A stretch of DNA of 32,073 nt, taken from assembly GCF_021556455.1 (NCBI RefSeq), contig NZ_JAKGCV010000018.1, forward strand, positions 1-32,073, written 5' to 3'. The position numbers and the translations under genes were made by a program. This DNA is from Streptomyces fuscigenes (GTDB taxonomy: Bacteria; Actinomycetota; Actinomycetes; Streptomycetales; Streptomycetaceae). The notes under the pieces are model-generated. The model had not been told where the DNA came from. It made no database searches and saw only the letters and a list, made by a program, of their open reading frames with translations. Numbering within the stretch: the first letter of the stretch is position 1; each line of letters begins with the position of its first letter. Of the stretch, positions 4,581 through 19,179 are shown piece by piece.

Positions 4581-5408
4581 GTGACCTCTTACGAGCCGGC
4601 GCACCGGGATTTCCTCGCCGTCACCGGGGACACGCTGATCTGCGTGCAGGTGGCACATCCAGCCGGCCAGGTGCGGGCGCCGGGCGAGGCGAACCGGTTC
4701 CTGCAGTCGCGTTCCATCGACGCGCTGATGATCGCCGCCGACGTGACTCCGGCGGATCTGCCGGGGTTTGTGGCAGGGCTGCGTGGCTGGGGCAACCTGT
4801 GCGGGCTCAGCGTGACCATGCCGCACAAGGTCGCGATGGCGCGCCTGGTGGACGAGCTCGCCCCGACCGCCGCGGACGCCGGGACCGTCAACGTCGTCCG
4901 GCGGGATCCGGACGGGAGGCTGACCGGGGCGACCTTCGACGGCACCGGCTACGTGGCGGGCCTTCGTGCCCAGGGACACGAGGTGGCCGACCGCAGAGTG
5001 ACCGTGGTAGGTGCCGGCGGGGTCGGCCGGGCGGTCGCGTTCGCACTGGCCCGAGGCGGGGCGGCCCGGGTGAACGTGGTGAACCGGACCCGGGCGCGCG
5101 GCGAGGAGCTGGCCGCCGACCTGGCCGACCGCACCGCACTGGCCGACGTCCACAGCGTCGAGGTTCCCGCCCCGGACGACGACATCGTCGTGAACGCCAC
5201 CTCGCTGGGCATGGACCCCTCGGACCCGCTGCCCGTCGACGTGGGCCTGCTGTCCCCGCAGACACTCGTAGGAGAGGTCGTGGCGAACCCCGACGTCACG
5301 CCGCTGCTCGCGGCCGCCGAGGCGCGCGGGCTCGCCGTCCACAAAGGGATCCAAATGATGGCGCCCCAGTTCCTGGAAGGCGCCCGATTCATGCGCCTGA
5401 TTCCCTGA
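4581..5408 (+). CDS. Shikimate-dehydrogenase-like NAD(P)-dependent oxidoreductase
   Basis: Predicted 275-residue protein of the AroE/YdiB family, which reduces dehydroshikimate or related keto-quinates in aromatic metabolism. Seen: MPHK with the catalytic lysine (Lys83), AGTVNVV with Asn104, TFDGTGY with Asp120, the nucleotide-binding GAGGVGRAVAFALA near residue 148, NRTRARGEELA after it, and NATSLGM near residue 203. The N-terminal SxS shikimate-carboxylate loop (usually H-S-x-S-P) is absent; this protein has VAHPAGQVRAPGEAN instead, so the substrate may differ. The GTG at 4581 overlaps the TGA of a six-codon open frame (4564-4584) that follows AAAGGA, a possible coupling leader. A start at GTG 4542 is also possible. 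It stands alone, with no shikimate genes nearby. Confidence 0.85.
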   Translation: MTSYEPAHRDFLAVTGDTLICVQVAHPAGQVRAPGEANRFLQSRSIDALMIAADVTPADLPGFVAGLRGWGNLCGLSVTMPHKVAMARLVDELAPTAADAGTVNVVRRDPDGRLTGATFDGTGYVAGLRAQGHEVADRRVTVVGAGGVGRAVAFALARGGAARVNVVNRTRARGEELAADLADRTALADVHSVEVPAPDDDIVVNATSLGMDPSDPLPVDVGLLSPQTLVGEVVANPDVTPLLAAAEARGLAVHKGIQMMAPQFLEGARFMRLIP

Positions 5409-5985
5409 GGCCGGGCCGCCGGCGTTGTTCGTTCCTGACCACCGCTTCGTTGGAGGGGAGGCTGCCTGGCCGGGGGCACGGCTGCGCCCGGCCGAACTGC
5501 GGACCCCGTTCCGCGGGTGCAGCGTCGAGGTACGGCATGCGAGCAGTTCACGCGCAGGCCGCGGCCGGGTGGCGGGACGCACCTGCGCCGGTCGGGCGCG
5601 AAGATCCTGATCAGCGGGATCTGCGCGCACGCCCGCGGCCGCGGTCACCAGTACATGAGCTGGGACGTGGCAGCGCACACGTTCCGGTCGCCGCCGGAAG
5701 GCTGTACCGGTGCGCATGGGCGAGCACACGGGTACGGGGCCGACCGGGCGGAACAGGGCGCGCTGCTGGAGGCGGGTGGCGGCGGCCCGCGACCCGCCTG
5801 GGCCGGCGTGGCGGCGCTCGTACGCGCCGGGCGGTCAGGACGGCCGCGCTCGTGCCCGTGACATGAGAGGCCGTCCGACTGCCGCGTTCCCAGGCCCGCC
5901 CGGGCCCGCCCCGGGACGGGACGGCCGGGAACGCCCCGGGAGGCACGGCACCCGCGACCGCGCCTCCCGGGTGGTGGCGAGGAGT
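5409..5985. other. Convergent intergenic region, no gene seen
   Basis: This lies between the oxidoreductase gene and the end of the nine-gene operon. Open frames exist on both strands but none has recognisable motifs. It contains the operon terminator hairpin at 5935-5971. Confidence 0.45.
5935..5971. terminator. 10-bp hairpin after the nine-gene operon
   Basis: CCCGGGAGGC (5935-5944) pairs with GCCTCCCGGG (5962-5971) around a 17-nt loop. It lies 14 bases beyond the stop of the last gene of the minus-strand operon. Confidence 0.7.
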
Positions 5986-6498
5986 TCAGCGCGCCCGCGC
6001 CCCGCCGAACAGCTCAGGCCGGCCTGCCGCCAGCGCGATCAGGCCCCCCGCCTCCAGCATCTCGACCAGGAAGCGGTCGGCCGGAGCGCCCGACGCCGTG
6101 GCGCCCGTCCTGGTGTTGGTGACGGCCCCCGTCGTGAGGTCCGCGCGCAGCACGTCGCCCGCGCCTGCCAGCGCCGTGACGCCGGGCACTTCGAGTGCGG
6201 GCAGGCCGACTTCGAAGCAGTTGCGGTAGAAGGTGCGGGCGAAGGACTCGGCGACGACACACCCGATACCCGTGCCCTGGAGCGCCTTCGTGGCAATGGC
6301 GCGGCCCGACGACTGGCCGAAGTGCCGTCCTGCGACCACGATGTCCCCCGGCGCGACGTTCAACGGAAAATCGGGGTCCAGGTCCTCCAGTACGTGCCGG
6401 GCCATCACCTCCACCGGTTCGAACACGTACTGGGGCTTGACCAGCCGGTCGGTGGGCACGTTGTCGCCGAAGATCCAGCACTTGCCCTCGAACCTCAC
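5986..6498 (-). CDS. Second LeuD-like (aconitase-family small subunit), degenerate loop
   Basis: Predicted 170-residue protein of the isopropylmalate-dehydratase small-subunit (swivelling domain) family. Seen: GDNVPTDRLVKPQYVF at the start, equivalent to the 'NTDxIxPxxY' opening of LeuD, then VVAGRHFGQSSGRAIATKAL near residues 57-76, and FARTFYRNCFEVGLPALE near residue 87. The active-site loop reads FGQSSGRAIA where ordinary LeuD has FGCGSSREHA, so the first Cys-Gly is gone and the Arg-Glu-His is altered. The GTG start overlaps the preceding large-subunit stop by 4 nt. It presumably pairs with the iron-sulfur-less large subunit just upstream. Whether the pair is catalytic is unknown. Confidence 0.82.
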   Translation of the reverse strand: MRFEGKCWIFGDNVPTDRLVKPQYVFEPVEVMARHVLEDLDPDFPLNVAPGDIVVAGRHFGQSSGRAIATKALQGTGIGCVVAESFARTFYRNCFEVGLPALEVPGVTALAGAGDVLRADLTTGAVTNTRTGATASGAPADRFLVEMLEAGGLIALAAGRPELFGGARAR

Positions 6499-7745
6499 GG
6501 TGTGCTCCTCTCGGCGATCTCGCCGGCCGCGGCCGACGCGGCCACGGTGCCCGCCGAGGCCAGGTACATCTCCGCGTCGGTGCTCCCGTTGCGGCCCGGG
6601 AAGTTGCGGGCGTGGGTGGAGACCATGGCTTCGCCCGCCGCCATGGCGCCCATGTTGATGGCCTGGTTGGACCCGGTGCTCGGCGGGAACCAGGTGGCGC
6701 CCGCCTCGTGCAGCGCGAGCACGAGTCCCTCCCGCACCGCCTGCGCGAAGATCTCCCGGCTCGACGGCACGATGTTGAAGCGGGTGCGGGGGTGGACCGT
6801 GCGGCCCCGCAGGACCTCGGCGGCCGTCCTGATGTCCTCGATCCTGCCGCCGCCGTGGCCGCCCAGCTCCGCGTAGTCCACAGGGCGTCCCGCGACGTCG
6901 GAGACGGCCTTGGCGTTGCCGACCGTCGGCGGACACGCGACCTGCGGCACGACGTCGCTCACGTCGAAACGCAGTACGGACGCCGCCTCGCCGCCGTCGC
7001 CGCGCGGGAAGTCGTCCGGCAGCCCACCCGGCAGCGCCCGGACGAACGCCTCGGTGACCTCGTCGGGCTCGACGTAGCTGCACTTGGCGCCGAGGTCTAC
7101 GCACAGCAGCGGGAACAGCCACCGGTCCCAGAAGCCGAGCTGCTTGACGTAGGGACCGGTGAACTCCAGGGCCTTGTAGTTCATCGCGCCCTCGCCGATC
7201 TGCGCGGTCAACCAAAGGGCCACGTCGCGAGGGGTCGTGCCGGGCCGCGGGACGCCGTGCAGCTCGATCCCCACCGTCTCCGGGACCCTGAACCACGCCT
7301 TGCTGTACGGCAGTACGGTGCCCGCGTGCGAGTCGTTGCCCAGCGCGACGGCGAGCGCCCCGAGCGCGCCGTGCACGGGGGTGTGGCTGTCGGAGCCCAC
7401 CACGATCATGCCCGGCTTGACGAAGCCGCCCCGCACCGCGGCGTGGTGCAGGTTGCCGCTTCCGCAGTCCAGCAGGTTGATCCCGGTGCGGCGGGCCCAC
7501 TCCCGGTTGTGGTGCAGGACGTCCGCCTGCTGCTCGGTGGGCGGCGAGTAGTGGTGGTCGAAGACCATCAGGGTGCGCTCGGGGTGGGGGATGGGCAGCC
7601 CGACCTTCTTGTCGTAGACGCCCGAGGTGAGATAGCCGCTCAGGTCGTGCATCAGCAGCATGTCCACCTCGGCGATGACGATCTCACCGGGTTCGACGGA
7701 CGGCTTGCCGCTCGCCCTGGCGAGGATCTTCTCGACCAGGTTCAC
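6495..7745 (-). CDS. Second LeuC-like large subunit lacking iron-sulfur cysteines
   Basis: Predicted 416-residue protein with the aconitase/isopropylmalate-dehydratase large-subunit fold. Seen: MVFDHHYSPPTEQQ near residue 65, VVGSDSHTPVHGALGALAV near residue 116, PYSKAWFRVPETV, and GSTDAEMYLAS near the end, all in family order. The three [4Fe-4S] ligand cysteines are missing: the usual GSCTN segment is replaced by LGGHGGGRIEDI, and the usual GCGxC segment by TWFPPSTGSNQAI. The GTG start at 7745 has a perfect GGAGGTGATG before it and overlaps the upstream LeuC-like stop by 4 nt. A structural or allosteric partner of the intact pair is likely; a metal-free or differently liganded enzyme is the alternative. 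Confidence 0.88.
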   Translation of the reverse strand: MNLVEKILARASGKPSVEPGEIVIAEVDMLLMHDLSGYLTSGVYDKKVGLPIPHPERTLMVFDHHYSPPTEQQADVLHHNREWARRTGINLLDCGSGNLHHAAVRGGFVKPGMIVVGSDSHTPVHGALGALAVALGNDSHAGTVLPYSKAWFRVPETVGIELHGVPRPGTTPRDVALWLTAQIGEGAMNYKALEFTGPYVKQLGFWDRWLFPLLCVDLGAKCSYVEPDEVTEAFVRALPGGLPDDFPRGDGGEAASVLRFDVSDVVPQVACPPTVGNAKAVSDVAGRPVDYAELGGHGGGRIEDIRTAAEVLRGRTVHPRTRFNIVPSSREIFAQAVREGLVLALHEAGATWFPPSTGSNQAINMGAMAAGEAMVSTHARNFPGRNGSTDAEMYLASAGTVAASAAAGEIAERSTP

Positions 7746-9022
7746 CCCATCACCTCCGCGGGGTTCGTGATGACACCGGTGATCGCGGAGGCGGCCGCGG
7801 TGGCGGGGCTGCTCAGATAGATGCGGGAGTCGTAACTCCCCATACGACCTTGGAAGTTGCGGTTGGCCGTGGAGAGGGTGGCCTCGCCGTCGGCCATCGC
7901 GCCCCCGTTGCCCGCGCACGCGCCGCAGCCCGCGTTGGTGATCATCGCGCCGGCCTCGACGAGGGTGGCGAGCACACCGGTCCTCGACGCCTTCGCCATC
8001 ACCGCGCTCGACGCCGGCGTGACCACGAGGCGCACGCCGTGGGCGACCTTGTGGCCCTTGAGGACGTCCGCCGCGATCTCCAGGTCGTCGTACTTCGCGT
8101 TGGCGCAGGACCCGATGAACACCTGGTCCAGACGCGTCCCGCTGACCTCGTCCACGTCCACGACGTTGTCCACGGTGTGCGGGACGGCGATCTTCGGGGT
8201 CAGCGTCGAACCGTCCAGTACCACCGTGTCCCGGTACTCGGCCCCCGCGTCCGGCAGCAGCACCTCGTAGCCGTCCGCACCGACGCCCGCCTCGTCCGCC
8301 AGATAGGCGCGGGTGGTCTCGTCGGGCGCCACATAGGCGTTCTTCGCACCCATCTCCATGGCCAGGTTGCAGAACGTCATGCGCTCGGACACCGAGCGCG
8401 AGCGCACGTACGAGCCGCCGAACTCGGCCGAGCAGTAAGTGAGTCCGTCAGCGCCGAGGTCCCCGATCAGCTTCAGCATCACGTCCTTCGCGTAACTGCC
8501 CACCGGCAGCTCCCCGTCGATCTCGACCCGGACCGACTCCGGCACCTTCACCCACAGCTTGCCGGTGACCCAGGCGGCGGTGATCTCGCTGAAGCCCACA
8601 CCCGTGCCGAACGCGCCCAGCGCGCCGTAGATCGTGGAGTGGGAGTCCGTGCCGATGACGAACTGCCCCGGGCGTATGAGGCCGTTCTCCATCAGCACGA
8701 TGTGCGCGATGCCCGCGTTGACGTCGTAGAAGTTCTTGATTCCCATGCGGTCGGCGAACTCGCGGCACAGCCGGTGGTCACCGGCCGTCTTCGCGTTCAT
8801 CGCGGGGGAGATGTGGTCCATGACCATCGCCACCCGGTCCGGGTCGTAGAGGGTGCTGACACCCATGCGCTCCAGCGTGCGGATGCAGCGCCAGCTCGCC
8901 GTGTGGCTCATGTACACGTCCGGGAAGGCGTCCACGATCTGTCCCGGGGCGAGGCCGCTCTCGCCGGACGCCCGCTCTATGGCCTTCTGTGCGAAGGTCC
9001 TGGGGGCCGTGAGGGTGCTCAT
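7742..9022 (-). CDS. LeuC-like aconitase-family dehydratase large subunit, iron-sulfur ligands intact
   Basis: Predicted 426-residue catalytic subunit of a hydro-lyase of the isopropylmalate dehydratase/homoaconitase group, which moves or removes water on hydroxy-di- or tricarboxylates with a [4Fe-4S] cluster. Seen: MVMDHISPAMNAKTAGDH near residue 67, VIGTDSHSTIYGALGAFGTGVG near residue 121, FIGSCANAKYDD with Cys306, and NAGCGACAGNGG with Cys366 and Cys369, the expected three ligands. The start ATG overlaps the LeuD-like stop by 4 nt (ATGA). The context (MFS transporter, M24 proteins, ornithine-cyclodeaminase family) does not fit leucine synthesis, so this is a catabolic relative such as a citraconate-, maleate- or dimethylmalate-type dehydratase. 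Substrate unknown. Confidence 0.92.
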   Translation of the reverse strand: MSTLTAPRTFAQKAIERASGESGLAPGQIVDAFPDVYMSHTASWRCIRTLERMGVSTLYDPDRVAMVMDHISPAMNAKTAGDHRLCREFADRMGIKNFYDVNAGIAHIVLMENGLIRPGQFVIGTDSHSTIYGALGAFGTGVGFSEITAAWVTGKLWVKVPESVRVEIDGELPVGSYAKDVMLKLIGDLGADGLTYCSAEFGGSYVRSRSVSERMTFCNLAMEMGAKNAYVAPDETTRAYLADEAGVGADGYEVLLPDAGAEYRDTVVLDGSTLTPKIAVPHTVDNVVDVDEVSGTRLDQVFIGSCANAKYDDLEIAADVLKGHKVAHGVRLVVTPASSAVMAKASRTGVLATLVEAGAMITNAGCGACAGNGGAMADGEATLSTANRNFQGRMGSYDSRIYLSSPATAAASAITGVITNPAEVMG

Positions 9023-9582
9023 CGGGCCGCGCGCTCCTCTCGTTGCTCGTCCCGCTCGATGCCGCGCATGAGGTGGGGGATCAGACCGCCGTCCCGCAGG
9101 ATCTCCTTGAGGCCGCTCGGATAGGGCGCGAAGCCGAACGTCCGGCCGGACGTCTCCACCGTGCCCTCGTCGTAGTCGACCCACATCTCGCCCTCGCCGC
9201 CCGCTGCCGCGAGCGCCGTGACCGCCTCGGGGCACTCGACGGCGACGAGGCCCGTGTTGATGGCGTTGCGAAAGAACACCCGCGAGAAGGAGGCCGCGAC
9301 GACGGCCTGGATCCCGGCGCCGAGCAGGCAGGTCGCGGCCTGTTCACGGGCGCTGCCGCAGCCGAAGTTGCGTCCCGCGACGACGACCCTGCTGGCGCGC
9401 AGCCGCCGCTGCACCTCGGGGCCCAGCGGCTCGAAGGCGTGCTCGGCGAGTTCCGCCGGGTCGATGCTGACGAGATAGCGCCCCGGGATGATGACGTCGG
9501 TGTTGACACTCTCGCCGAAGGTGATGGTGGGGCCGCCGATCCGGTGGCGGCCCGGTTGCTCTGCCGGTTCACGACTGCTCAT
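9019..9582 (-). CDS. LeuD-like aconitase-family small subunit, intact loop
   Basis: Predicted 187-residue small subunit forming the substrate-closing domain of the dehydratase with the adjacent LeuC-like protein. Seen: FGESVNTDVIIPGRYL near residues 22-37, VVVAGRNFGCGSAREQAATCLL near residue 66, which is the conserved substrate-phosphate/carboxylate loop of LeuD, and SRVFFRNAINTGL near residue 99. Start ATG 9582 has GAGGAGACCG upstream. A 74-nt gap separates it from the ornithine-cyclodeaminase-family gene, the longest spacer in the operon, and may carry an internal start or processing site. Confidence 0.92.
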   Translation of the reverse strand: MSSREPAEQPGRHRIGGPTITFGESVNTDVIIPGRYLVSIDPAELAEHAFEPLGPEVQRRLRASRVVVAGRNFGCGSAREQAATCLLGAGIQAVVAASFSRVFFRNAINTGLVAVECPEAVTALAAAGGEGEMWVDYDEGTVETSGRTFGFAPYPSGLKEILRDGGLIPHLMRGIERDEQREERAAR

Positions 9583-9656
9583 GTGTATCGGTCTCCTCCT
9601 GTCGTTCGGGGGCCGGGGCCCGGCCCCGCGGCGGGGCCGAGCCGTGCGGGCCGCGG

Positions 9657-10736
9657 TCAGGGGCTCGTGTCCTCCAGGAGCCAGTCCGTCGGCACCTCAT
9701 GGCCCAGTCCCTGGGCCTCGGCGAGCTGCAGGGCCCGCGCACACACCGCCGCGAACTGCACACCCATGCCGGTGTTGTTGGCGAACACCGTGATGTCGTC
9801 GGGAGACGTACGGCCGGGCGCCTCGCCCAGCAGCAGCTCACCCAGTTCGCGGATGTCCTCCCAGCCGAGCCTGCCGCGCTCGACAGGCCCGAGGATGTCG
9901 TACTGCTTGTCGTGGTGGACCTGCTCGCGGGAGAGCACGGTGATCCTGCTCGCCCGGTCGAAGGTCGTGTCGTCCAGCTCGCGCCTGGTGGCGGTCCCGT
10001 CCGGCGAGGTGATGGCGGTGACGTGCGTGCCCGGTTCGAGCCAGGCCCCGTCGAAGCAGGGCTCCATCGCGGCGGTGGCGCAGGTGACGATCCCGCAGCC
10101 CGCCACGGCATCCCTGCGCTCCGGGACCGCGACGATCCTGCGCCCGGTGCGCTCGCTCCAGGTCGCGGCGAAGCGCTCGCGGTTCTCCGGCGTCGGGCTG
10201 TAGACGCGCACCTCCTCGATGCCGGGCCGTACCAGCAGCAGTGTCTCCAGATGGGCCTGGGCCTGCCAGCCCGAGCCGAACATCCCGGCCACGGTGACGT
10301 CCTCGCGCGACAGTTCGCGGATGCCGAGTGCCGAGGTGGCTCCGACCCGCATCTTCTGCACGAAGCTGTCGTGCAGCATCGCCAGCGGCTCCAGCGTGGT
10401 CAGGCTGTACAGCGTCACCAGGCCGACGTAGCGGTTGCCCGGTGCCGCGGGGATCAGCCTGCGCCGGCGCACACCGCTCGGCAGCGTCTCCACGCCCGCC
10501 ATGTCCGAGGTGATGCGCAGGGCCCACACGCCGCTGGAGACGTTGCCGCCCTCCTGCGACTTGAAACGGAAGCCGAAGCCGGGCCACCGCTCGTCGCCCA
10601 CCGGGAAGTAGGTGTGGTTGCGCGGACGGTTGGCGCCCCGGCCGCTCGACAGCTCGCGGTACGCCGTCGTCAGCGTGTCGAGGCACTCCTCGGCCGTGAG
10701 CACCTTCTCGACGTCGGAGTTGGACAGGATCCTCAT
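9657..10736 (-). CDS. Ornithine cyclodeaminase / mu-crystallin family protein
   Basis: Predicted 359-residue NAD(P)-dependent enzyme. Family members deaminate and cyclise ornithine, oxidise alanine, or reduce cyclic imines such as pyrroline-2-carboxylate. Seen: ILSNSDVEKVLTAEECLD at the N-terminus, MRVGATSALGIRELSREDVTVAGMFGSGWQAQAHLE near residues 133-168, which combines the conserved substrate arginine with the nucleotide-binding glycine turn, and EPGTHVTAITS with the later acid patch. The nucleotide turn reads GMFGSGWQAQ instead of the usual GxGxQA. ATG start overlaps the preceding M24-like stop by 4 nt. EutC of ectoine breakdown belongs to the same family and also travels with an M24 protein, a useful but not decisive analogy. 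Confidence 0.88.
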   Translation of the reverse strand: MRILSNSDVEKVLTAEECLDTLTTAYRELSSGRGANRPRNHTYFPVGDERWPGFGFRFKSQEGGNVSSGVWALRITSDMAGVETLPSGVRRRRLIPAAPGNRYVGLVTLYSLTTLEPLAMLHDSFVQKMRVGATSALGIRELSREDVTVAGMFGSGWQAQAHLETLLLVRPGIEEVRVYSPTPENRERFAATWSERTGRRIVAVPERRDAVAGCGIVTCATAAMEPCFDGAWLEPGTHVTAITSPDGTATRRELDDTTFDRASRITVLSREQVHHDKQYDILGPVERGRLGWEDIRELGELLLGEAPGRTSPDDITVFANNTGMGVQFAAVCARALQLAEAQGLGHEVPTDWLLEDTSP

Positions 10737-11794
10737 GCGACCGCCTCCCCGGACGCGGCGGTGAGGACCTCGGCGCCGTCCCCGGTGACCAGGACGGTCT
10801 CGCCGACCGCCGCGTAGCCTCCCGCTTCGAACAGCACGTCGACGGCCACGGCGACCACCGAACCCTCCGCCATCGGTTCGTCCGCCGCCCGGTGGCGGTA
10901 CTCCCCGTCCGTCGCCAGGTCGGCCTGGTTGACCCAGCGCACCTGAGCGTCGCTCCCGGCGGGCAGCAGGGCGAGCGCGGGTCCGCCCGCCTCGGTGAGG
11001 TGGCGTGCCGTCACCCCCGGCCCGACAGCCCCCAGCGCGGCGTCGAGAGCCTCCCGCAGCGCGCCCGTCCACGAGGGCCCGTCCGTGTCCGCGAGGCGCG
11101 CCGCGTGCAGCCATCCGGTCCTGTACTGGCCCGTCACCTGCACGCACGCGACCCCGTCGGGCGCGTGCGCCACCCGGGTCGCCACGTCGAGGAACCCGGC
11201 GCCGCGCACCACGCGTTCGACGACCGCGGTACGCGCCCGGGCGTCGAGGCCGGCGGCCGCCGCGTCCCGTGCCGCGCGTCCCACCACCGTCCCGCCCTGC
11301 CGCAGCAGCGCGAGCTCCGCCCCGGAGACGACCGCGCGCCGCTCGCCGACCAGCTCCGGCAGCTCGGTGACCCGCCAGCCCGGCAGGGCCGCCGCCACCT
11401 CCTCGACCAGCGCTGCGGGCCAGCGCGCCGCACCCACCAGACCGAGCGTGCCGTGCGGCATCCCGTCCAGCAGACCGGTCACGAGCGCGCCGAAGCTCCT
11501 GCCGCTCTCGATCCGCTCCACCGTCGAGACGCGCCGCATCCACGGGTGGACGCGCGGCGACAGCTTCGTGAGGAACACCGGCTCGCCGCCCGCCGGGACC
11601 GCGAGGATGCCCTCGTTCCAGTAGATGCACAGGTTCGTCAGGTACGCGATGTCGTCCGAGGCGAAGACGTCCCCGTACACCAGGGCGACGTCCACCCCCT
11701 CCGCGACGAGCCGGGACCGCAGCGCGTCGCCGCGCTCCCGCCACTCGCCCGCCGGGACCTCGGCCTCGTCGAGCACCACCAGTCCGCGCTTCAC
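10733..11794 (-). CDS. Degenerate M24 (creatinase/prolidase-fold) protein B
   Basis: Predicted 353-residue protein. The N-terminal half resembles the creatinase N-terminal domain: WRERGDALRSRLVAEGVDVALVYGD, then DDIAYLTNLCIYWNEGILAVP near residue 48, and SGAELALLRQGG near residue 160 where the second domain begins. The C-terminal half has the length of an M24 pita-bread domain but none of the usual ligand motifs: no DGY-x-D, no GHGxG histidine, and no E-P near the end. Only VAVDVLFEAGGYAAVGETVLVTGDG keeps the closing family pattern. The GTG start overlaps the stop of M24 protein A by 4 nt. It is probably a non-catalytic partner of protein A, since M24 proteins of this type dimerise. Confidence 0.75.
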   Translation of the reverse strand: MKRGLVVLDEAEVPAGEWRERGDALRSRLVAEGVDVALVYGDVFASDDIAYLTNLCIYWNEGILAVPAGGEPVFLTKLSPRVHPWMRRVSTVERIESGRSFGALVTGLLDGMPHGTLGLVGAARWPAALVEEVAAALPGWRVTELPELVGERRAVVSGAELALLRQGGTVVGRAARDAAAAGLDARARTAVVERVVRGAGFLDVATRVAHAPDGVACVQVTGQYRTGWLHAARLADTDGPSWTGALREALDAALGAVGPGVTARHLTEAGGPALALLPAGSDAQVRWVNQADLATDGEYRHRAADEPMAEGSVVAVAVDVLFEAGGYAAVGETVLVTGDGAEVLTAASGEAVA

Positions 11795-12981
11795 GCGGCG
11801 GCTCCCTTCTCGCTGTGGAACAGCTTCCGCTCGGTGGCCACCAGGACCTCGCAGCCGTCCGCCGTCACCCGCACCGGATCGCCCAGCACGTGGTAACCGG
11901 CCAGCGGCGTATAGGTGTTGGGGTGGATGATGAAGACGGCGTTCTCCGGGAGCACCGTCTCGTTGCCCTCGATGATCGGCGTCTCGTCCAGGTGCAGGCC
12001 GTGGCCGTGGCCGCGCACCCGGGTGTAGCGGCTCGTGCAGTACTCGCCGTACCCGTACGCCCGGAAGACGTCGTTCTGCGCCTTCGCCACGTCGTGGGCG
12101 GTGACGCCCGGACGCACCGAGGCGATGCCTGCCGCCACCGCCTCGTCGAACAGGGCGAACGAGCGCCGCTGCCCCTCGTCCGGCCTGCCCACCACGGCCG
12201 AACGGCAGATCTGCAGCCAGTAGCCGTCCATCTGCGGGGTCAGCTCCGTGCGGACCATGTCGCCGGCCTCCAGCACGCGCGGGGTCGGCGCGGTCATGCC
12301 GCGCACCTCGTCCTTGCCCGAGGCGATCAGCATGAAGTTGTCCTCGGCGCCCAGCTCCTTGATGCGCGCTTCGACCTCCGCGACGATCCGGAACTCCGGG
12401 AGGCCGGGCTCCAGGACGTCCACGAACGCCTCCCAGCCGGCCGCGCAGACCGCCGCACTGCGCCGCATGCGGGCCAGCTCCCAGTCGCTCTTGACCAGCC
12501 GGACGCCGTCCAGGAGCCGAGTCGCGGAGACGATCTCCGCTCCGGGGACGGCCCGGCGCAGCGCCGCGTCGAGCATGGCGGGCAGCAGTTCCAGATGCGC
12601 CACCCCGATGCGGCGCGGGCGCAGGTCCCGCAGCCGGCCGATCAGCGGCTCCGGGTCCCACACGTCCAGGACGCCGGCGTGGTCGACCCAGCCGGTGCCC
12701 GCGAGTTCGGGCAGATCGCCGCGGCGCGTGGAGAAGGCGGACACCTCACCGGAGGCCGGGAACAGCACCATCGACGAACTGCCGGTGATACGCGCGTCGG
12801 TGAAGTACCGCACGTTCTCCCTGCGCCAGCCGGGGCCGTACGCGATGACGGCGTCGAGCCCCTCGGCCGCCATCGCGGCACGCACCTTGCGGTGCCTGAG
12901 GTCGCGCTCCGCCCCGTCGGCGTCCGGGCCGCCGGGCGGCGCCACCGTCGCCGCGGATTCCGTGTCGCTGGCCGTGGTCAT
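11791..12981 (-). CDS. M24-family protein A (creatinase/ectoine-hydrolase-like)
   Basis: Predicted 396-residue protein. Residues about 25-160 form a creatinase-type N-domain (MAAEGLDAVIAYGPGWRRENVRYFTD); the rest is the pita-bread M24 domain. Seen: ELTPQMDGYWLQICRS, RGHGHGLHLDETP with the conserved histidine, and AVFIIHPNTYTPLAGYHV. The metal ligands of true aminopeptidases are mostly lost: the second Asp of DGYxxD is Gln, and the E-P glutamate is His. This fits the metal-free branch that includes creatinase and the ectoine hydrolases DoeA/EutD, which cut non-peptide C-N bonds. The ATG is 3 nt from the transporter stop, with AGGTGAAGC before it. It likely acts first on the imported compound. 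Confidence 0.85.
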   Translation of the reverse strand: MTTASDTESAATVAPPGGPDADGAERDLRHRKVRAAMAAEGLDAVIAYGPGWRRENVRYFTDARITGSSSMVLFPASGEVSAFSTRRGDLPELAGTGWVDHAGVLDVWDPEPLIGRLRDLRPRRIGVAHLELLPAMLDAALRRAVPGAEIVSATRLLDGVRLVKSDWELARMRRSAAVCAAGWEAFVDVLEPGLPEFRIVAEVEARIKELGAEDNFMLIASGKDEVRGMTAPTPRVLEAGDMVRTELTPQMDGYWLQICRSAVVGRPDEGQRRSFALFDEAVAAGIASVRPGVTAHDVAKAQNDVFRAYGYGEYCTSRYTRVRGHGHGLHLDETPIIEGNETVLPENAVFIIHPNTYTPLAGYHVLGDPVRVTADGCEVLVATERKLFHSEKGAAA

Positions 12982-12984
12982 GCT

Positions 12985-14514
12985 TCACCTGCCTGTCTCT
13001 TGGTCCTGCGGTGATGTGAGTCCGGTGACGGGGGGCCGCGGCGACGGGATGCCGTCGGTCCTTCGCGGCGCCTCCGGGACGGCCGCGCGGGACGGTGTCA
13101 TCAGGGCGGCGATCTGCTCGATCGTCCTGCCCCTGGTCTCGAGGACGCCGAGCAGGCCGCAGCCCCCGGCGAGCAGCGAGACCACGGCGAACAGGACGAA
13201 GAAGACGTAGCCGGGGGAGTGCAGTGCCAGCACCCAGCCGATCACCGTGGGAACGACGAGTCCGCCGACCTTCTGCCAGGCGGCCGCCCAGCCGAGCCCC
13301 GTCGCCCGGTTGAAGGTCGGATAGAGCTCGCCGGCGTAGACGAACAGGGTGCTCCCTGCGATGCCGCTGCCGAAGAACGTGGCCGCGCAGCCGAGCACGA
13401 TCACTGAGGGAGTGGTCGAGGCCGCGCCCCACCACAGGCACAGTGCGCCGCTGAGCAGCAGGGGGTACGCGATCGTCGGACGCCGCCCGACGCGCCGGGC
13501 GACGAACCCGGCGAGCAGGGCGCCCAGTACACCGGCGGCCGTGATGACCGCCGTGTACGTGAGGCTGCCCAGCAGGCCGATCCCCTTCTTCTCCAGAATG
13601 GACGGCAGCCAGGTGGACAGGCCGTAGAGGAAGGCTCCCGCGCACAGCTCCATGAACCAGAGCGCGAGCGTGTGCCTGCGGTAGCGCCCGGTCAGGAGCC
13701 CGCGTACGGAGCCCGCGGACGGCTCGGCCGGCCGGCCGGTCCCGCCCGCACCGTCCGGGCGCGGGTGGGCGTGCCCGGACGCCGGAGCGGGAGCCCGGCC
13801 CGCCTGCCGCTGCCGGGGAACGAGCGCGGCGACCACGGCGAACGCCTCGGCGTGCCGCCGCCGGCGCAGCAGATAGCGGACGGACTCCGGCAGGACCGCC
13901 ACCATCACGGCGCTCACCACGACGGGCGCGACGCCGATGTAGAACATCGCACGCCACCCGAGCGACGGGACGACCGCGGCGCCCACCAGCGCGGCCACGG
14001 GAAGCCCGACGAGCCAGGCGGCCGTCGCGGCCGTGACCAGCGGAGCCCGGTGCCGGGAAGGCACGAACTCGGTGATGTACGGGAGCACCACCGCGATCTC
14101 GGCGCCCAGCCCGACACCCTGGCAGAGCCGTGCCGCCAGGAGCGACGGGTAGTTCCAGGACAGGGCGGCCAGGACCGAGAAGGCGGCGAAGACCAGGAGG
14201 CACGCGGCGAGGGGGAACTTGCGGCCGAGGCGGTCCGAGACCACTCCCGCGGTCGCGGCACCGAGCAGCATGCCGAGGAAGAGCGCGGAGCCGAGGTAGC
14301 CGGCCTGCCCGCTGCCGACGTGGTAGGAGGCGACGACCCCCGGCATGACGACGCCCGTCGTGTTGATGACGAAGCCGTCGAGGAAGTGGCCTGCGAGTGC
14401 GGTGCCGTAGATGATGCCGTGCCGCCGCGTGAACGCGGAGTCGTCCAGTGTGGTGAGGAGATCGGGCGGGGCAGCGTCCTGCGGCCCGCCGTCGGTCGTG
14501 CGTGGGTTCGTCAC
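12985..14514 (-). CDS. Major facilitator superfamily transporter
   Basis: Predicted 509-residue inner-membrane proton symporter with about 12 helices. Seen: HFLDGFVINTTGVVMPGV in helix 1, the MFS loop SDRLGRKFPL after helix 2, RLCQGVGLGAEIAVVLPYITEF in helix 4, PESVRYLLRRRR before a long, Pro/Ala-rich central loop near residues 230-265, and ARRVGRRPT as the matching loop in the second half. These features place it with the sugar/aromatic-acid/nicotinate porters. A GTG at 14526 is impossible because it overlaps the AAGGAGG ribosome site, so the GTG at 14514 is used. As first structural gene after marR it most likely imports the operon's substrate. Confidence 0.9.
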   Translation of the reverse strand: MTNPRTTDGGPQDAAPPDLLTTLDDSAFTRRHGIIYGTALAGHFLDGFVINTTGVVMPGVVASYHVGSGQAGYLGSALFLGMLLGAATAGVVSDRLGRKFPLAACLLVFAAFSVLAALSWNYPSLLAARLCQGVGLGAEIAVVLPYITEFVPSRHRAPLVTAATAAWLVGLPVAALVGAAVVPSLGWRAMFYIGVAPVVVSAVMVAVLPESVRYLLRRRRHAEAFAVVAALVPRQRQAGRAPAPASGHAHPRPDGAGGTGRPAEPSAGSVRGLLTGRYRRHTLALWFMELCAGAFLYGLSTWLPSILEKKGIGLLGSLTYTAVITAAGVLGALLAGFVARRVGRRPTIAYPLLLSGALCLWWGAASTTPSVIVLGCAATFFGSGIAGSTLFVYAGELYPTFNRATGLGWAAAWQKVGGLVVPTVIGWVLALHSPGYVFFVLFAVVSLLAGGCGLLGVLETRGRTIEQIAALMTPSRAAVPEAPRRTDGIPSPRPPVTGLTSPQDQETGR

Positions 14515-14525
14515 GAACGATGCCA

Positions 14526-14532
14526 CCTCCTT
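14526..14532 (-). promoter_or_regulatory. Ribosome binding site that fixes the MFS start
   Basis: AAGGAGG on the minus strand lies 11 nt before the GTG at 14514. It overlaps the alternative GTG at 14526 and so excludes it. Confidence 0.7.
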
Positions 14533-14551
14533 GTGTGGCTACGCCCCCGGG

Positions 14552-15022
14552 TTATCGGTCGTCGAGGCTCCCCTGGACATCGAGGAACAGCTGCCGCAGC
14601 GGGGGCAGGATCCGGTCCTGGAGCTCCTGCGGCAGGTGTGCGGTGAGTTCGGAGGTGAACTTCGCCAGCGCCTCGCTTCCCGCTGCGAGTGCCGCGGTGC
14701 CCGCCGGGGTGAGCGCGAGCTGCATGGTGCGGCGGCTGGTCTCCGAGGTCCTGCGGGTGAGCAGGCCCTGGTGGACGAGTTTGTCGACGCTCTGCGACAT
14801 CGTGGAGAGGTTTCTGCGAGCGAGCTTCGCGAGGGCCGTCAGCGACGTGTGTCCGCCGTCGACCCGGGCGAGGATGCGATATTGACGGATCGTCAGGGGC
14901 TGATCCAGTGAGGCGAGGATCTCGGTCTGCAAGCGGGTGAGCCTGCCGCCGAGTGCGACGAGGACCTCTCCCAGAGTGTGTCCGGGGTCGGGGGACGACG
15001 GTGGGGGAAGGCGCCGAGTCAT
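14552..15022 (-). CDS. MarR-family transcriptional regulator
   Basis: Predicted 156-residue winged-helix repressor. Seen: PLTIRQYRILARVDGG near residue 43, HTSLTALAKLARRNLSTMSQSVDKLVHQGLLTRR as the recognition helix and following turn, and TSETSRRTMQLALTPAGTAAL as the wing, all in MarR order. The frame remains open upstream to 15412, but the ATG at 15022 has GGAG 9 nt before it and gives the normal family length. Its stop is 37 nt from the transporter start on the same strand, so it heads the nine-gene operon and probably represses it until the substrate or an intermediate binds. Confidence 0.9.
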   Translation of the reverse strand: MTRRLPPPSSPDPGHTLGEVLVALGGRLTRLQTEILASLDQPLTIRQYRILARVDGGHTSLTALAKLARRNLSTMSQSVDKLVHQGLLTRRTSETSRRTMQLALTPAGTAALAAGSEALAKFTSELTAHLPQELQDRILPPLRQLFLDVQGSLDDR

Positions 15023-15343
15023 CAGTTGGGGCTCCGTACTGTCCGGTACCCGAAGTATCTGGCTCCTGGAAGCTACGCCCGGCCGGCGCGGGGCGGCAAG
15101 GGGTCGTACCGAAGTCGTTCGTACGCGCCGGCGGGAGCCGCCGAGGGCCCGGGCAGGACCAGGCGGCGGGGGGAAGAAGAAGTGCTCGGCACCGGAAAAC
15201 GCGCACCGGCGCATTTCCCGTGAGCGCACACGTCCCGGCCCCCGACTTCTTACGGCGGGGCCCGGTGGGGTGCAGAGTCCCCCGCTTTCGTCAAGCCTTG
15301 TCCGGCGGATCGTCACCTGAATTTCCTGTCGTACGATGGCGCC
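15023..15343. promoter_or_regulatory. Divergent promoter region, marR operon and hxlR-type gene
   Basis: About 320 bases separate two outward-facing regulator genes, so both promoters should be here. A small dyad with CCGTAC and GGTACC around 15034-15050 lies just upstream of the marR ribosome site and is a weak operator candidate. TACGAT at 15332-15337 is a possible -10 for the plus-strand gene. Confidence 0.45.
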
Positions 15344-15754
15344 ATGGAAGGCGCCGAAGAGAGGTCGTGCACGTCGATTTCTGCGGCGGGGGCGTCGGGG
15401 GATCACGGACACCGCTGTTCACGTCCCGACGATGGCACCGTTGAGGTGTTCGCCCTTCTCGGAAAACGCTGGACAGGGCTCCTGATCGCCGCACTGCTGA
15501 AGGGGCCCGGATTCTTCTCCGAGTTGCATCGCGCGGTGCCCGGCATCAGCGAACGCATGCTGGCCGACCGGCTCGCCGAACTGTCCGCCCTCGGCCTTCT
15601 CGTACGCATCGTCGACGACGGCCCGCCGGTGCGTGTCTCCTACCGACTCACCGATGCCGGCCGCGCGTTGGGGCCCGCGATGGCGGAACTGTCCCAGTGG
15701 GCACGGTCCCACCTGGCCGGCACGCGGGCGCCGGGCCCGCGGCGTGACGCCTGA
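15344..15754 (+). CDS. HxlR-family transcriptional regulator
   Basis: Predicted 136-residue winged-helix DNA-binding protein. Seen: VFALLGKRWTGLLIAALLKGPGFFSELHRAVPGISERMLADRLAELSALGLLVR around residues 33-87, the defining HxlR pattern of a W-x-x-x-I-x-x-L helix, the F-x-x-L-x-R turn and the 'IS-RML-xRL-EL' recognition helix. Then V-YRLTDAGRALGPAM closes the wing. No good ribosome site precedes the ATG, and a TACGAT hexamer ends only 6 nt before it, so a leaderless message is possible. A Cys near residue 9 and another near residue 25 could sense redox change or aldehydes as in some family members. Likely target: itself and the cupin gene downstream. Confidence 0.9.
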   Translation: MEGAEERSCTSISAAGASGDHGHRCSRPDDGTVEVFALLGKRWTGLLIAALLKGPGFFSELHRAVPGISERMLADRLAELSALGLLVRIVDDGPPVRVSYRLTDAGRALGPAMAELSQWARSHLAGTRAPGPRRDA

Positions 15755-16125
15755 GGCCGTCGAATCCGCTCGGGGCCCGGCGCCCGGTCGTACGGGCTCG
15801 CAGCGAACCCGCACGCCCGGTCGTACGGGCTCGCGGCGAACCCGCCCGTGGAACGGCCGCCTTTCTCACCTCATTCGTGCCGGGACGCCGCCGGGAGTGC
15901 CGCTGTTCCCTTCCGCGGGGGACCCTTTCGCTCCGCGCGACTCGATCCAGAGGCTTAGGTCTCCGGCCTCATGACAGCCGGGCGGATAGGCTCCAGAATG
16001 TTGCCTTGTCCGGCCGCGACGGATCCGGGAACCGGATACCGTTCGACCCCGTGGGAAAGAGGTGGGCGTTCACACCTGTTCCCTGAGGAAGTCGGCGCGG
16101 CCCTCCTTTCCAGGAAAGCGGAACG
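15755..16125. other. Intergenic region between hxlR-type and cupin genes
   Basis: No gene seen in about 370 bases. It holds the 33-bp tandem repeat at 15782-15847 and the upstream region of the cupin gene. Confidence 0.45.
15782..15847. repeat. Two tandem 33-bp units, each with a small hairpin
   Basis: Bases 15782-15814 and 15815-15847 are the same 33-bp unit with only two differences seen (one central A/G and one near the end). Each unit contains GCCCG-GTCGTA-CGGGC, an inverted repeat with a 6-nt loop. The pair begins 27 bases after the HxlR-type stop and may serve as a double weak terminator. Confidence 0.8.
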
Positions 16126-16635
16126 ATGACGTTCTTCGAAAACAATGGGGTAGCGACGACCACCGAGGCGGGAATCGTGCACGTGCCCGCCGGGGAGGGG
16201 CCGGCGCGATGGTTCGGCGCCGACCTGTACACCGTCAAACTCCGGGCCGAACAGACGGATGGCGCCATCGGCTTCGTCGAAGCGTCGGTCCCGCCGGGCG
16301 GCGGCTCCCTCGCGCACACCCACGACCGCCAGACGGAGACGTTCTACCTCGTCTCCGGCGAACTGACCTTCCTCAGCGGCGAGCGGACCTTCGTCGGCCG
16401 CGCCGGGGATCTCGTGTTCGTCCCTCCGCGCAGCCGGCACAGCTTCCACAACCACGGCCTGCGGACCGCGCAGCTGCTCTTCTTCTACACGCCGGCGGGA
16501 GGAGCGGAGGAGGTCTTCGTCGAGCACGGCGACCAGGCGGAACCGGGGGAGTTCCAGCAGCCCTGGGGGCCCGAGCGGTTCACCGCCGACGTGATGGCGG
16601 CGTTCACGCGAAGCGGGACGACCTTCCTTCCCTGA
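16126..16635 (+). CDS. Cupin-domain protein, quercetinase-like
   Basis: Predicted 169-residue single beta-barrel cupin. Seen: cupin motif 1, GGGSLAHTHDRQTETFYLVSGE, with metal-ligand candidates His64, His66 and Glu71, and motif 2, GDLVFVPPRSRHSFHNHG, with His105. A ligand set of three His and one Glu is the classic mononuclear iron, manganese or nickel site, as in dioxygenases, isomerases and some binding proteins. GGAAAGCGG lies just before the ATG. It is 371 nt downstream of the HxlR-type gene on the same strand and may be its target. The substrate cannot be read from the sequence. Confidence 0.85.
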   Translation: MTFFENNGVATTTEAGIVHVPAGEGPARWFGADLYTVKLRAEQTDGAIGFVEASVPPGGGSLAHTHDRQTETFYLVSGELTFLSGERTFVGRAGDLVFVPPRSRHSFHNHGLRTAQLLFFYTPAGGAEEVFVEHGDQAEPGEFQQPWGPERFTADVMAAFTRSGTTFLP

Positions 16636-16898
16636 CGTTCCGGTGTCCCGGCGGCGGACAGCCCCCAACCGGTCCCGGCCGTGGGCCCGTTCGACCTGCC
16701 TGTTCGACCACTTCGCCCTCGACCGGCTGGGCACCCTTTCCGCACCTCGCGACCCCGTGTTCCGTCGGCTCCTCCGGTTCGCGCGGGCGGCGCCCCGCGC
16801 CTCCCGCGCTGCGCAGCCGTCGCCGTGACGGCCCTGTCCGGCCCGGCTCCGCCCGCGGGCGGTGCGGCGCTGCCGCCGCATCCATGGCGGCCGGGACC

Positions 16899-18677: not shown

Positions 18678-19179
18678 GACACTCCTGAGGGCGGTTCGTG
18701 CACGGCTCGTGCGCCCTGCCTCTACCCCCTGATGCACGGATCATGGCGCGCCCGGCGGCACCGGGCCGGGGCGGCGTACGCCCGGACGCCGCGAAGACCT
18801 GGTCCCGCCCCGGAGGACACCGTGCACGACGCGCCGCCGTGGGTCCCGCCCTCCGGGCACCGAGGCCGGGTCGGCACCCGGTCGGCGCCGCACGGGCGTT
18901 CGGCCCCGGTGAACGCCGGGTACGGCTGCCGCCGGGCGGGGCCGGCGGCAGCGGACAGGACCGGGCGGGCCGGAGACCGGCCCGCGCGTGGAGCGTGTCG
19001 ACGGGGCGTGAGAGAGGCGGTCGGGCAGGGGCCATCAGTCCTCGTGGCGGAGGTCAGGAAGAGGGACTCCGGGCGACGGCCGACCTCGTGCGGGCGTCGT
19101 CAGGCCCCTCGTGTCGCTCTCCCTCCGACGGAAGCTGTCCGGGTCCGGGCGGCGTCCGCCGGACCGCCGAGGCAGGACG
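18678..19179. other. 500-base intergenic region upstream of recQ
   Basis: No convincing gene. It contains the recQ promoter side and the 3' side of the methyltransferase gene. No SOS-type box (GAAC-N4-GTTC) was seen. A short direct repeat of CGTGCNCGGCTCGTGC type lies near 18694-18711. Confidence 0.4.

Follow-up and report, generated by a model that had tools for sequence, protein, structure and literature searches.

The analysed window, a stretch of 32,073 nucleotides from Streptomyces fuscigenes (contig NZ_JAKGCV010000018.1), contains an operon of nine genes, all on the minus strand with a MarR gene at the head. Five overlaps of 4 nucleotides connect M24a/M24b, M24b/OCD, LeuD1/LeuC1, LeuC1/LeuC2, and LeuC2/LeuD2. 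This layout, proposed in an earlier sequence-only reading, is borne out by the gene calls. The first gene (14552..15022) encodes the MarR-family regulator (PF01047, 30.4 bits, cut-off 24.6) and is followed by the gene for an MFS transporter, a putative importer (12985..14526; PF07690, 173 bits), for which the GTG at 14514 is the likelier start, because position 14526 falls within AAGGAGG. Next come M24a (P0003, 11791..12981; PF00557, 111 bits), an M24 protein of the creatinase/ectoine-hydrolase type, M24b (P0004, 10733..11794), a degenerate M24-fold protein assigned by AF2 and Foldseek, and the OCD protein (P0005, 9657..10736; PF02423, 131 bits), an NAD(P)-dependent enzyme of the OCD/mu-crystallin family. 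A gap of 74 nucleotides, with AGGAGGAG upstream of LeuD1, separates OCD from two pairs of aconitase-type genes. These encode the small subunit LeuD1 (P0006, 9019..9582), the large subunit LeuC1 (P0007, 7742..9022), the aconitase-fold large subunit LeuC2 (P0008, 6495..7745) and its small-subunit partner LeuD2 (P0009, 5986..6498). The Pfam cut-offs are passed for MarR, MFS, M24 (P0003), OCD, Aconitase (P0007 and P0008), and Aconitase_C (P0006 and P0009).

The terminal hairpin noted earlier 3′ of LeuD2 (5935..5971, minus strand; arms 5935-5948 and 5958-5971) proved real by folding and arm pairing: the surrounding 111-nucleotide stretch reaches -78.6 kcal/mol (z -3.1), and none of 200 shuffled sequences folded equally low. 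It lacks a T run and is absent from the terminator-scan list.

Conservation of the gene set

The sequence-only reading had suggested a search for the same neighbourhood in other genomes. Scanning 84,980 species genomes with two LeuC2 peptide patterns, an approach that favours close relatives, yielded 41 loci. All seven enzyme genes occur in the same order in 23 of these, distributed over Actinomycetota, Bacillota and Pseudomonadota, and parts of the module are likewise found in Chloroflexota and 'Deltaproteobacteria'. Thus, the gene set is spread beyond actinobacteria over several bacterial phyla, and since one order is shared by so many loci, the grouping is not due to chance. The MarR and MFS genes accompany the seven enzyme genes in 11/41 loci, and a MarR-like gene is present in 18/41. 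In other loci the place of the MFS protein is taken by an ABC importer of the SsuA type or by a TRAP importer, with an SsuA-type binding protein in 10/41. These results uphold the earlier view of a co-inherited unit comprising a transporter, a creatinase-like candidate C-N hydrolase, a dinucleotide enzyme of the OCD family and aconitase-type enzymes, and we regard the operon as very probably a conserved catabolic unit. In agreement with the sequence-only reading, we found no description of a pathway with this gene set in the open-access literature searched, nor is the gene order assigned there to a known pathway.

Two aconitase-type pairs, one with cluster cysteines

LeuC1 carries Cys at all three cluster sites in 35/35 aligned rows and scores above the cut-offs of NF001614, TIGR01343 and TIGR02086; for the hacA/IPMI_arch subfamilies of NCBIfam it reaches 500.8, 470.9 and 466.8 bits against cut-offs of 385, 385.7 and 410.15, which makes it a member. 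Its partner LeuD1 (TIGR02087, 150.3 bits, cut-off 108.95) shows the motif GCGSAREQA in 28 of 29 copies. Leucine-biosynthetic subunits were considered and rejected: LeuC1 (224.4 bits) and LeuC2 (126.8 bits) fail the TIGR00170 cut-off of 560.25, as do LeuD1 (51.6 bits) and LeuD2 (31.8 bits) the TIGR00171 cut-off of 116.25. The genome's own LeuC scores 740.9. Because this housekeeping LeuC and AcnA are encoded elsewhere in the same genome, roles of the operon in leucine biosynthesis or the TCA cycle are unlikely.

The second pair likewise belongs to the aconitase fold, with a large and a small subunit (PF00330, 197.8 bits for LeuC2; PF00694, 40.4 bits for LeuD2). The AF2 model of LeuC2 (pLDDT 92) superimposes on 4kp2 with 1.7 A over 408 residues (VIA Z 55.6), and its fold is accordingly predicted to be intact. 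However, none of the 42 loci (the 41 relatives and the window) has a Cys at any of the three cluster ligand sites. The first site, His297 in the motif ELGGHGGGRI (residues 293-302; 6840..6869, minus strand), occupies the position of aconitase Cys358 and is His in 42/42 loci. Thr357 and Asn360, within WFPPSTGSNQA (residues 352-362; 6660..6692, minus strand), take the positions of Cys421 and Cys424; here, Thr is found in 39, Ser in 2 and Ala in 1 of the loci, and Asn in all 42. In three loci (L033, L037 and L047) a Cys stands one position upstream of the second site. The earlier description as two aconitase-type pairs holds for the families, which pass Pfam, but conceals the loss of the cluster cysteines in LeuC2. 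The hydration or dehydration step proposed along with it cannot be assumed for both pairs, because LeuC2 lacks the Fe-S ligands at all three sites.

Of the remaining active-site positions compared, LeuC2 preserves most. In an alignment of 40 rows (the window and 39 loci), D63, H64, H100, D119, S120, H121, R380 and R385 are retained throughout. The substrate-side set, Asp100, His101, His147, Asp165, Ser166, His167, Glu262, Asn446, Arg447 and Arg452, is kept at 8 of the 10 positions in 40/40 rows, while Glu262 is present in 28/40 and Asn446 in 0/40. Moreover, C94, E185, E293, H297 and N360 are invariant in these rows and differ from LeuC1. LeuD2 (TIGR02087, 134.5 bits, cut-off 108.95; closest solved structure 3vba) carries FGQSSGRA (6298..6321, minus strand), extended to FGQSSGRA[IV]A in 43/43 copies with more than 45% identity to the window's protein. 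LeuC2 forms one clade with support of 100/100, recovered in 200/200 bootstrap trees. Its stem measures 1.84 changes per column, and the group placed as its sister joins long branches.

Compared with LeuC/LeuD of the hacA/IPMI_arch/DmdB group, LeuC2-LeuD2 thus shares the fold, the two-subunit layout and most substrate-side residues. The subfamily cut-offs are passed by LeuC1 and both LeuD proteins, whereas LeuC2 passes none of the NCBIfam cut-offs listed, has an invariant non-Cys replacement site and is paired with a LeuD in which FGQSSGRA stands for FGCGSSRE. Aconitase X, which includes cis-3-hydroxyproline dehydratase and phosphomevalonate dehydratase, is likewise a branch of the superfamily with an altered cofactor site. 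It retains an Fe-S cluster, held in part by different cysteines (PMC8184944, PMC10040528). LeuC2 shares 31-38% identity with four ordinary LeuC proteins and 12-14% with Aconitase X structures; the Aconitase X model PF04412 gave no match to LeuC2 at E 0.001 and 20.6 bits for LeuC1, below the cut-off of 31.5.

In four anaerobe-type loci the tree places the Fe-S partner in a different LeuC lineage, and yet identity to the window's proteins is 58-63% for LeuC2 and 52-57% for LeuD2. This conservation indicates that LeuC2-LeuD2 is the constant part of the set. One locus (L052) contains LeuC2-LeuD2 without LeuC1: in the whole genome the LeuC2 profile has a single match at E 1e-60, LeuC2 itself, a search in which LeuC1 copies of five other genomes score 1e-90 to 1e-94.

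Judged from these residue patterns, LeuC2-LeuD2 is likely to be an active aconitase-fold enzyme that works without a [4Fe-4S] cluster. That it may be an isomerase or C-N lyase and not a hydratase is a tentative suggestion. An alternative, possible though rather doubtful, is a metal-dependent hydro-lyase with a mononuclear metal held, for example, by His297 together with His100/Asp119/His121, or by Cys94. The replacement of a cluster ligand by His297 in all 42 loci and the invariance of His100, Asp119, His121, Cys94 and Glu293 in 40/40 rows would fit such a site, as would mitochondrial aconitase, in which His147, Asp165 and His167 are grouped around the fourth iron (PMC8184944). However, the cluster-bearing LeuC1 shows no variation at His100, Asp119 and His121 either, and these residues are therefore uninformative on a new metal; in addition, Thr and Asn bind metals poorly.

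M24a, M24b, OCD and the transporter

M24a was aligned with metal prolidases and, separately, with its counterparts from seven loci and Neorhizobium galegae; by these alignments, neither M24a nor M24b has Asp-Asp-His-Glu-Glu, the metal-ligand pattern of M24 metallopeptidases. Where these ligands usually stand, M24a has TELTP, QICR, RVRGHxHGL and HPNTY-type motifs, suggesting a conserved non-metal site. It has the pita-bread fold of the metal-free M24 enzymes DoeA/EutD and creatinase and, like these, a Glu in place of the first Asp of the metal enzymes, with the other metal ligands missing. In contrast, its identity to plasmid-borne doeA products is about 25%, and RVRGHxHGL and HPNTY are its own.

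M24b has no Pfam or NCBIfam match at E 0.001. Its AF2 model (pLDDT 92; best Foldseek match 5giu, E 1.4e-17, probability 1.00) nevertheless has the M24 pita-bread fold in degenerate form. The earlier count of two M24 proteins does not reveal that M24b has lost the usual active-site residues. A role as a normal M24 hydrolase is unlikely. In the loci compared, M24b lies directly 3′ of M24a wherever both are seen, and it is probably the partner of M24a; in L031, L033 and L039 its identity is 36-38%, as against 63-65% for LeuC2.

The OCD protein belongs to the PF02423 superfamily, reaches no NCBIfam cut-off and has 136 invariant residues in 31 rows (the window and copies above 60% identity). EutC, SbnB, BhcD and alanine dehydrogenase were rejected as identities (best of 13 models 135.7 bits, cut-off 409.15). 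OCD was not found in the four anaerobe-type loci, which carry a PreA-like gene. The MFS protein, probably an importer, is nearest in NCBIfam to aromatic acid/H+ symporters (TIGR00895, 252 bits, under the cut-off of 418.55).

A putative catabolic pathway and its alternatives

We lean towards reading the operon as a MarR-regulated catabolic unit for a small nitrogen-containing, carboxylate-rich compound with a cluster-independent LeuC2-LeuD2. The MFS protein would import this compound, M24a would hydrolyse a C-N bond at a metal-free site resembling that of creatinase and ectoine hydrolase, with M24b as non-catalytic partner, and the OCD protein may perform an NAD(P)-dependent imine or amine step. 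LeuC1-LeuD1 would then use its cluster to hydrate or dehydrate a substituted malate- or maleate-type acid, whereas LeuC2-LeuD2 would convert a near analogue of that acid through acid-base catalysis without a cluster, conceivably by double-bond or cis/trans isomerisation or by elimination of an amine instead of water, and its product would feed central metabolism.

Neighbouring genes fit the import and breakdown of a compact nitrogen-containing acid: besides the solute importers, HyuA, HyuB and MmgE/PrpD co-occur in 4/41 loci. In the window's own genome HyuA is under the cut-off, and a lactam step carried out by HyuA is therefore not general. In L052, LeuC2-LeuD2 adjoins a fumarate-lyase-family protein whose top solved matches include carboxymuconate cycloisomerase and trans-aconitate decarboxylase, a PrpD-family protein (matches to 2-methylcitrate dehydratase, IDS-epimerase and IRG1), and, under cut-offs, a CoA-transferase of the CaiB type and a member of the enoyl-CoA hydratase family; this points to aconitate-like substrates. 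UbiD, HpaB, Rieske, IlvD and a TPP enzyme are extra partners that vary from locus to locus and thus may be unrelated neighbours.

That LeuC2-LeuD2 and M24b are pseudoenzymes, with no function beyond stabilising or regulating LeuC1-LeuD1 and M24a, is unlikely. The missing cluster ligands and the fast-evolving M24b without recognisable active site would suit this explanation, and for M24b an inactive partner subunit is indeed the favoured reading; for LeuC2, however, the invariant catalytic His, Asp, Ser and Arg residues, the new invariant pocket, the occurrence without LeuC1 and the retention beside a LeuC1 of another lineage argue against it. It appears improbable that the operon is biosynthetic and makes an uncommon amino acid or hydroxy acid, such as one used in a natural product, which the MFS protein would export. 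LeuCD and OCD enzymes are found in amino-acid building-block pathways, the setting is Streptomyces, and in L022 the neighbour of LeuD2 is a TPP enzyme from the acetolactate-synthase superfamily; against this stand the sharing of the module with Bacillota and Pseudomonadota, its parts in Chloroflexota and 'Deltaproteobacteria', and the binding-protein-dependent importers at many loci. A variant of ectoine/hydroxyectoine catabolism (DoeA-M24 and EutC-OCD) is very improbable: M24 and OCD do share one operon, but the scores of M24a, 68.1 and 58.8 bits with the DoeA models NF038259 and TIGR02993, lie far below the cut-offs of 575 and 613, and OCD reaches 109.9 bits with EutC, far below 471.65; the DoeB deacetylase is missing from the operon by Pfam and NCBIfam, the active-site stretches of M24a are unlike DoeA, and LeuC/LeuD are not known to have a role in that pathway.

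Returning to the catabolic unit, LeuC2-LeuD2 may conceivably be the first cluster-free enzyme of the aconitase superfamily and the core of a patchy, undescribed pathway for lactams, amides or N-substituted polycarboxylates of the aconitate/succinate type, opine-like compounds included, in which it would eliminate an amine or shift a double bond while LeuC1-LeuD1 hydrates. The superfamily is described as Fe-S enzymes, and one research group has proposed a cluster-less common ancestor for it (PMC8184944). If true, the LeuC2 clade would show what an old aconitase scaffold can do without a metal cofactor, and it might yield an oxygen-tolerant lyase or isomerase; it would also mark a whole catabolic pathway shared by actinobacteria of soil, by bacilli and anaerobes, and by lineages from groundwater.

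A related arrangement occurs on a plasmid of N. galegae (L057), where HyuA-HyuB-M24-M24-MmgE/PrpD includes M24a (40%) immediately followed by M24b (28% over 237 residues); the 19-kb stretch contains no LeuC/LeuD and no OCD match, and its HyuAB and PrpD families recur in L018, L019, L030 and L033. For opine-lactam catabolism on pTiEU6, HyuA/HyuB are proposed to open opine lactams, with mmgE nearby (PMC6733357); that text makes no mention of isopropylmalate or ornithine cyclodeaminase, and the parallel serves as a lead only. Automatic annotation of the operon would probably read 3-isopropylmalate dehydratase and Xaa-Pro peptidase, as for plasmid relatives of its genes, and would be misleading.

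The operon and its conserved module

The nine-gene operon claimed from the sequence alone is borne out by the gene calls, which place it on the minus strand (15022-5986) and likewise count five 4-nt overlaps, and the terminal hairpin attributed to it corresponds to a strong hairpin at 5935-5971, directly past the last stop codon. The protein family assignments also hold in Pfam and NCBIfam profile searches. The MarR and MFS genes are separated by 25 nt, or by 37 nt with an MFS start at 14514, which is in better agreement with its ribosome-binding site; the MFS and M24a genes lie 3 nt apart, and the 74-nt gap between the OCD and LeuD1 genes contains a ribosome-binding site of its own.

Genomes of 84,980 species were scanned with an alignment of two LeuC2 sequences. 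Among the 150 matching stretches, 42 encode relatives and represent 41 distinct loci; these were picked by two LeuC2 peptides, and intermediate LeuC2 forms could have escaped the scan. M24a, M24b, OCD, LeuD1, LeuC1, LeuC2 and LeuD2 occur in the order of the operon in 23 of the 41 loci, namely in 19 loci from actinobacteria, two from Bacillota (L031, L039) and two from Pseudomonadota (L033, L037), and contig ends account for part of the incomplete sets. The module is thus a conserved unit. MarR and MFS are additionally present in 11 of the 23 complete loci, and seven loci with MarR lack this MFS, all of which carry SsuA- and/or SsuC-type ABC genes. The hosts comprise Streptomyces, Amycolatopsis, Saccharopolyspora, Pseudonocardia, Actinomadura, Geodermatophilus, Alicyclobacillus and Halalkalibacter as well as Burkholderiales, Sterolibacterium, 'Deltaproteobacteria', Acidimicrobiales, Clostridia, Flexilinea and Xaviernesmea. 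Within each sampled group the gene set is rare and patchy, since among the matches listed, with no more than 4 candidates scored per genome and misses therefore possible, a match at E <= 1e-90 was found in one of 396 genomes of the window's phylum (its own) and at E <= 1e-110 in one of 398 genomes from the phylum to which locus L052 belongs (L052 itself), and M24b was present in two of 100 relatives, own genome counted.

A shikimate dehydrogenase-like (AroE-like) gene at 4542-5408 on the plus strand, convergent with the operon and under the AroE cut-offs listed, was considered as a member and placed outside the set because none of the 41 loci contains a relative at E 1e-8. The operon region is flanked by genes for a DhaK dihydroxyacetone kinase subunit (2558-3550, minus strand, over cut-off) and a RecQ-family helicase (16899-18737, minus strand), and no link of either gene to the operon was seen. 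Frame breaks in module genes, due to sequencing error or decay, were observed in two Pseudonocardia assemblies and one Actinophytocola assembly (L023, L046, L055).

LeuC2 and LeuD2 at the cluster sites

According to PMC8184944, the [4Fe-4S] cluster of aconitase is held by Cys358, Cys421 and Cys424, and its fourth iron is surrounded by His147, Asp165 and His167. Alignment with solved relatives places His297, Thr357 and Asn360 of LeuC2 at the three cysteine sites. In the window and the 41 loci, the first site is His and the third Asn in 42 of 42 LeuC2 sequences, the second being Thr in 39, Ser in two and Ala in one; a Cys stands one position ahead of the second site in three loci (L033, L037, L047). 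LeuC1 of the same loci has Cys wherever the site is readable, i.e., in 38, 39 and 39 of 42 cases, there being no LeuC1 stretch at the remaining positions.

For the remaining residues we counted 40 LeuC2 rows, the window and 39 loci, with L046 and L055 excluded for their frame breaks. Asp63, His64, His100, Asp119, Ser120, His121, Arg380 and Arg385 are invariant and common to LeuC1, and Cys94, Glu185, Glu293, His297 and Asn360 are equally invariant and differ in LeuC1. Because both the shared and the LeuC2-specific residues are retained throughout these rows, the loss of the cysteines does not look like decay. The positions that we take to be equivalent to aconitase Glu262 and Asn446 (the labels Asp100, His101, Ser166, Arg447 and Arg452 are assumed likewise) are Glu in only 28 of 40 rows and Asn in none, respectively, which counts against a fully preserved site.

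LeuD2 reads FGQSSGRA[IV]A in all 43 copies over 45% identity, so that the counterparts of Ser642 and Arg644 are kept and the remainder of FGCGSSRE is lost. The motif is FGCNSSREWA in three more copies of under 36% identity, which adjoin the Fe-S large subunit of the anaerobe-type loci L041, L043 and L049; these loci contain one LeuC2 with two tandem LeuD2 copies, and at L047 a second LeuD2 copy begins at the contig end.

The LeuC2 structure predicted from 36 sequences (mean pLDDT 92) is nearest to the large subunits of methanogen homoaconitase and isopropylmalate isomerase (Foldseek query TM 0.88-0.93), and superposition with 4kp2 covered 408 residues at 1.7 A (VIA Z 55.6). A tree of 83 rows (38 LeuC2, 33 LeuC1 and 12 plasmid-borne reference LeuC) places LeuC2 on one side of a single branch with support of 100/100 (200/200 bootstrap trees) and a stem length of 1.84 changes per column; its sister group is unsure, because long branches meet there, LeuC2 and the nearest references among them. 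Of the LeuC1 rows, 29 of 33 fall into one clade and those of L041, L043, L047 and L049 into another, indicating a different Fe-S partner in these loci with LeuC2-LeuD2 retained.

The references derive from a tblastn search of LeuC2 against plasmids, which yielded 444 records, every one below 60% identity. Twelve of these were fetched, five with 9-kb and seven with 1.5-kb flanks, and 11 supplied the reference LeuC, the Streptantibioticus record being unused. Among these 12 reference LeuC, to which the cysteine check refers, all have the C-x-x-C pair and 11 match the first-Cys-site pattern, the exception being that of Natrinema. The Skermanella mucosa plasmid pSM-2 (L012, 7673-11323) carries a tandem LeuC-LeuC-LeuD-LeuD arrangement with the cysteines kept in both LeuC.

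PMC8184944 and PMC10040528 describe the aconitase superfamily as Fe-S enzymes, including aconitase X with partly other cysteines, and the former proposes a superfamily ancestor without a cluster. Searches of an open-access library yielded neither a pathway with this gene set nor an account of the LeuC2 clade.

The M24 pair, OCD and the candidate substrate

Relative to the usual M24 metal-ligand pattern, M24a has Glu for the first Asp (TELTP), Gln for the second (QICR) and His for the Glu in the IEP motif (HPNTY). In lacking the usual metal ligands M24a resembles the metal-free creatinase and ectoine hydrolase, but all cut-offs for the ectoine hydrolase DoeA failed. M24b matched nothing in Pfam or NCBIfam; structure prediction from 24 sequences (mean pLDDT 92) gave it a pita-bread fold of the M24 type, and it keeps no more than this fold. 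OCD was not found in L041, L043, L047 and L049, which carry a PreA-like gene (dihydropyrimidine dehydrogenase family), suggesting that OCD catalyzes a redox reaction. In the 'Deltaproteobacteria' loci L032 (498-12421), L029 and L034, LeuC2-LeuD2 is surrounded by two to four paralogues of OCD, and L034 has three UbiD-type genes as well.

A Neorhizobium galegae plasmid (L057) encodes relatives of M24a (40% identical) and M24b (28% over 237 residues) in the order HyuA, HyuB, M24a, M24b, MmgE/PrpD, ABC importer and amidohydrolase, and no LeuC, LeuD or OCD match was found in its 19-kb stretch. This HyuA-HyuB-M24a-M24b-PrpD-ABC-Amidohydro_2 operon (5177-16962), a pathway relative without a LeuC match, recurs in L056 (strain VafX2), where the annotation splits several of its genes into two or more shorter ones.

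Neighbours were counted in the 41 loci by tblastn with representatives, which detected an SsuA-type binding protein in ten, HyuB and MmgE/PrpD in five each, HyuA in four, UbiD in three, IlvD with an FAD enzyme and Rieske in two each, and HpaB in one. In locus L030, caprolactamase models were nearest to HyuA and HyuB with scores under cut-off, and the sole match of PrpD among solved chains at E 0.001 was IDS-epimerase (37 bits). LeuC2-LeuD2 of L052 is adjoined by a fumarate-lyase-family protein (best solved matches: 'fumarate lyase', carboxymuconate cycloisomerases and trans-aconitate decarboxylase) and a PrpD-family protein (2-methylcitrate dehydratase first, then IDS-epimerase and IRG1), with a CaiB-type CoA-transferase and an enoyl-CoA hydratase family protein also nearby. 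The only literature lead on the substrate within the open-access library, where citrazinate/isonicotinate and aconitate isomerase gave nothing useful, was a paper on the Ti plasmid pTiEU6 (PMC6733357), which proposes that HyuA/HyuB open opine lactams and places an mmgE gene close by. Taken together, HyuA/HyuB, PrpD, the L052 neighbours and pTiEU6 suggest that the substrate is a lactam, amide or N-substituted form of an aconitate- or succinate-type polycarboxylate; no single gene fixes it, and in the window's own genome HyuA was not over cut-off.

Proposed pathway and alternatives

A role in leucine or lysine synthesis or in the TCA cycle is rejected, because the equivalog cut-offs fail and the own genome encodes ordinary LeuC and AcnA outside the operon, scoring 740.9 bits (cut-off 560.25) and 1303.5 bits (cut-off 945), respectively. 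The ectoine route likewise failed its cut-offs, and for an AcnX-type hydroxyproline route LeuC2 (P0008) gave no AcnX match.

In the pathway that we propose, the compound would be imported and hydrolysed at a C-N bond by M24a, partnered by M24b; OCD would carry out an NAD(P)-linked reaction of an imine or amine, LeuC1-LeuD1 a hydration or dehydration, and LeuC2-LeuD2 would convert a similar acid without the need for a cluster. In a site that keeps the Ser base, the substrate arginines and the His/Asp set but has no Lewis-acid cluster, proton transfer (isomerisation) or amine loss would be chemically easier than hydroxide loss; LeuC2-LeuD2 is therefore tentatively, and with rather low confidence, regarded as an isomerase or C-N lyase. 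A serious rival is that LeuC2-LeuD2 employs a mononuclear metal using His297. A biosynthetic role of the operon as a whole is a less probable alternative; in locus L022, LeuD2 is adjoined by a TPP enzyme belonging to the acetolactate-synthase superfamily. A pure pseudoenzyme role of LeuC2-LeuD2 is less likely, since the pair occurs in L052, in whose genome LeuC1 was not seen at E 1e-60, and stays in the anaerobe-type loci where LeuC1 is exchanged.
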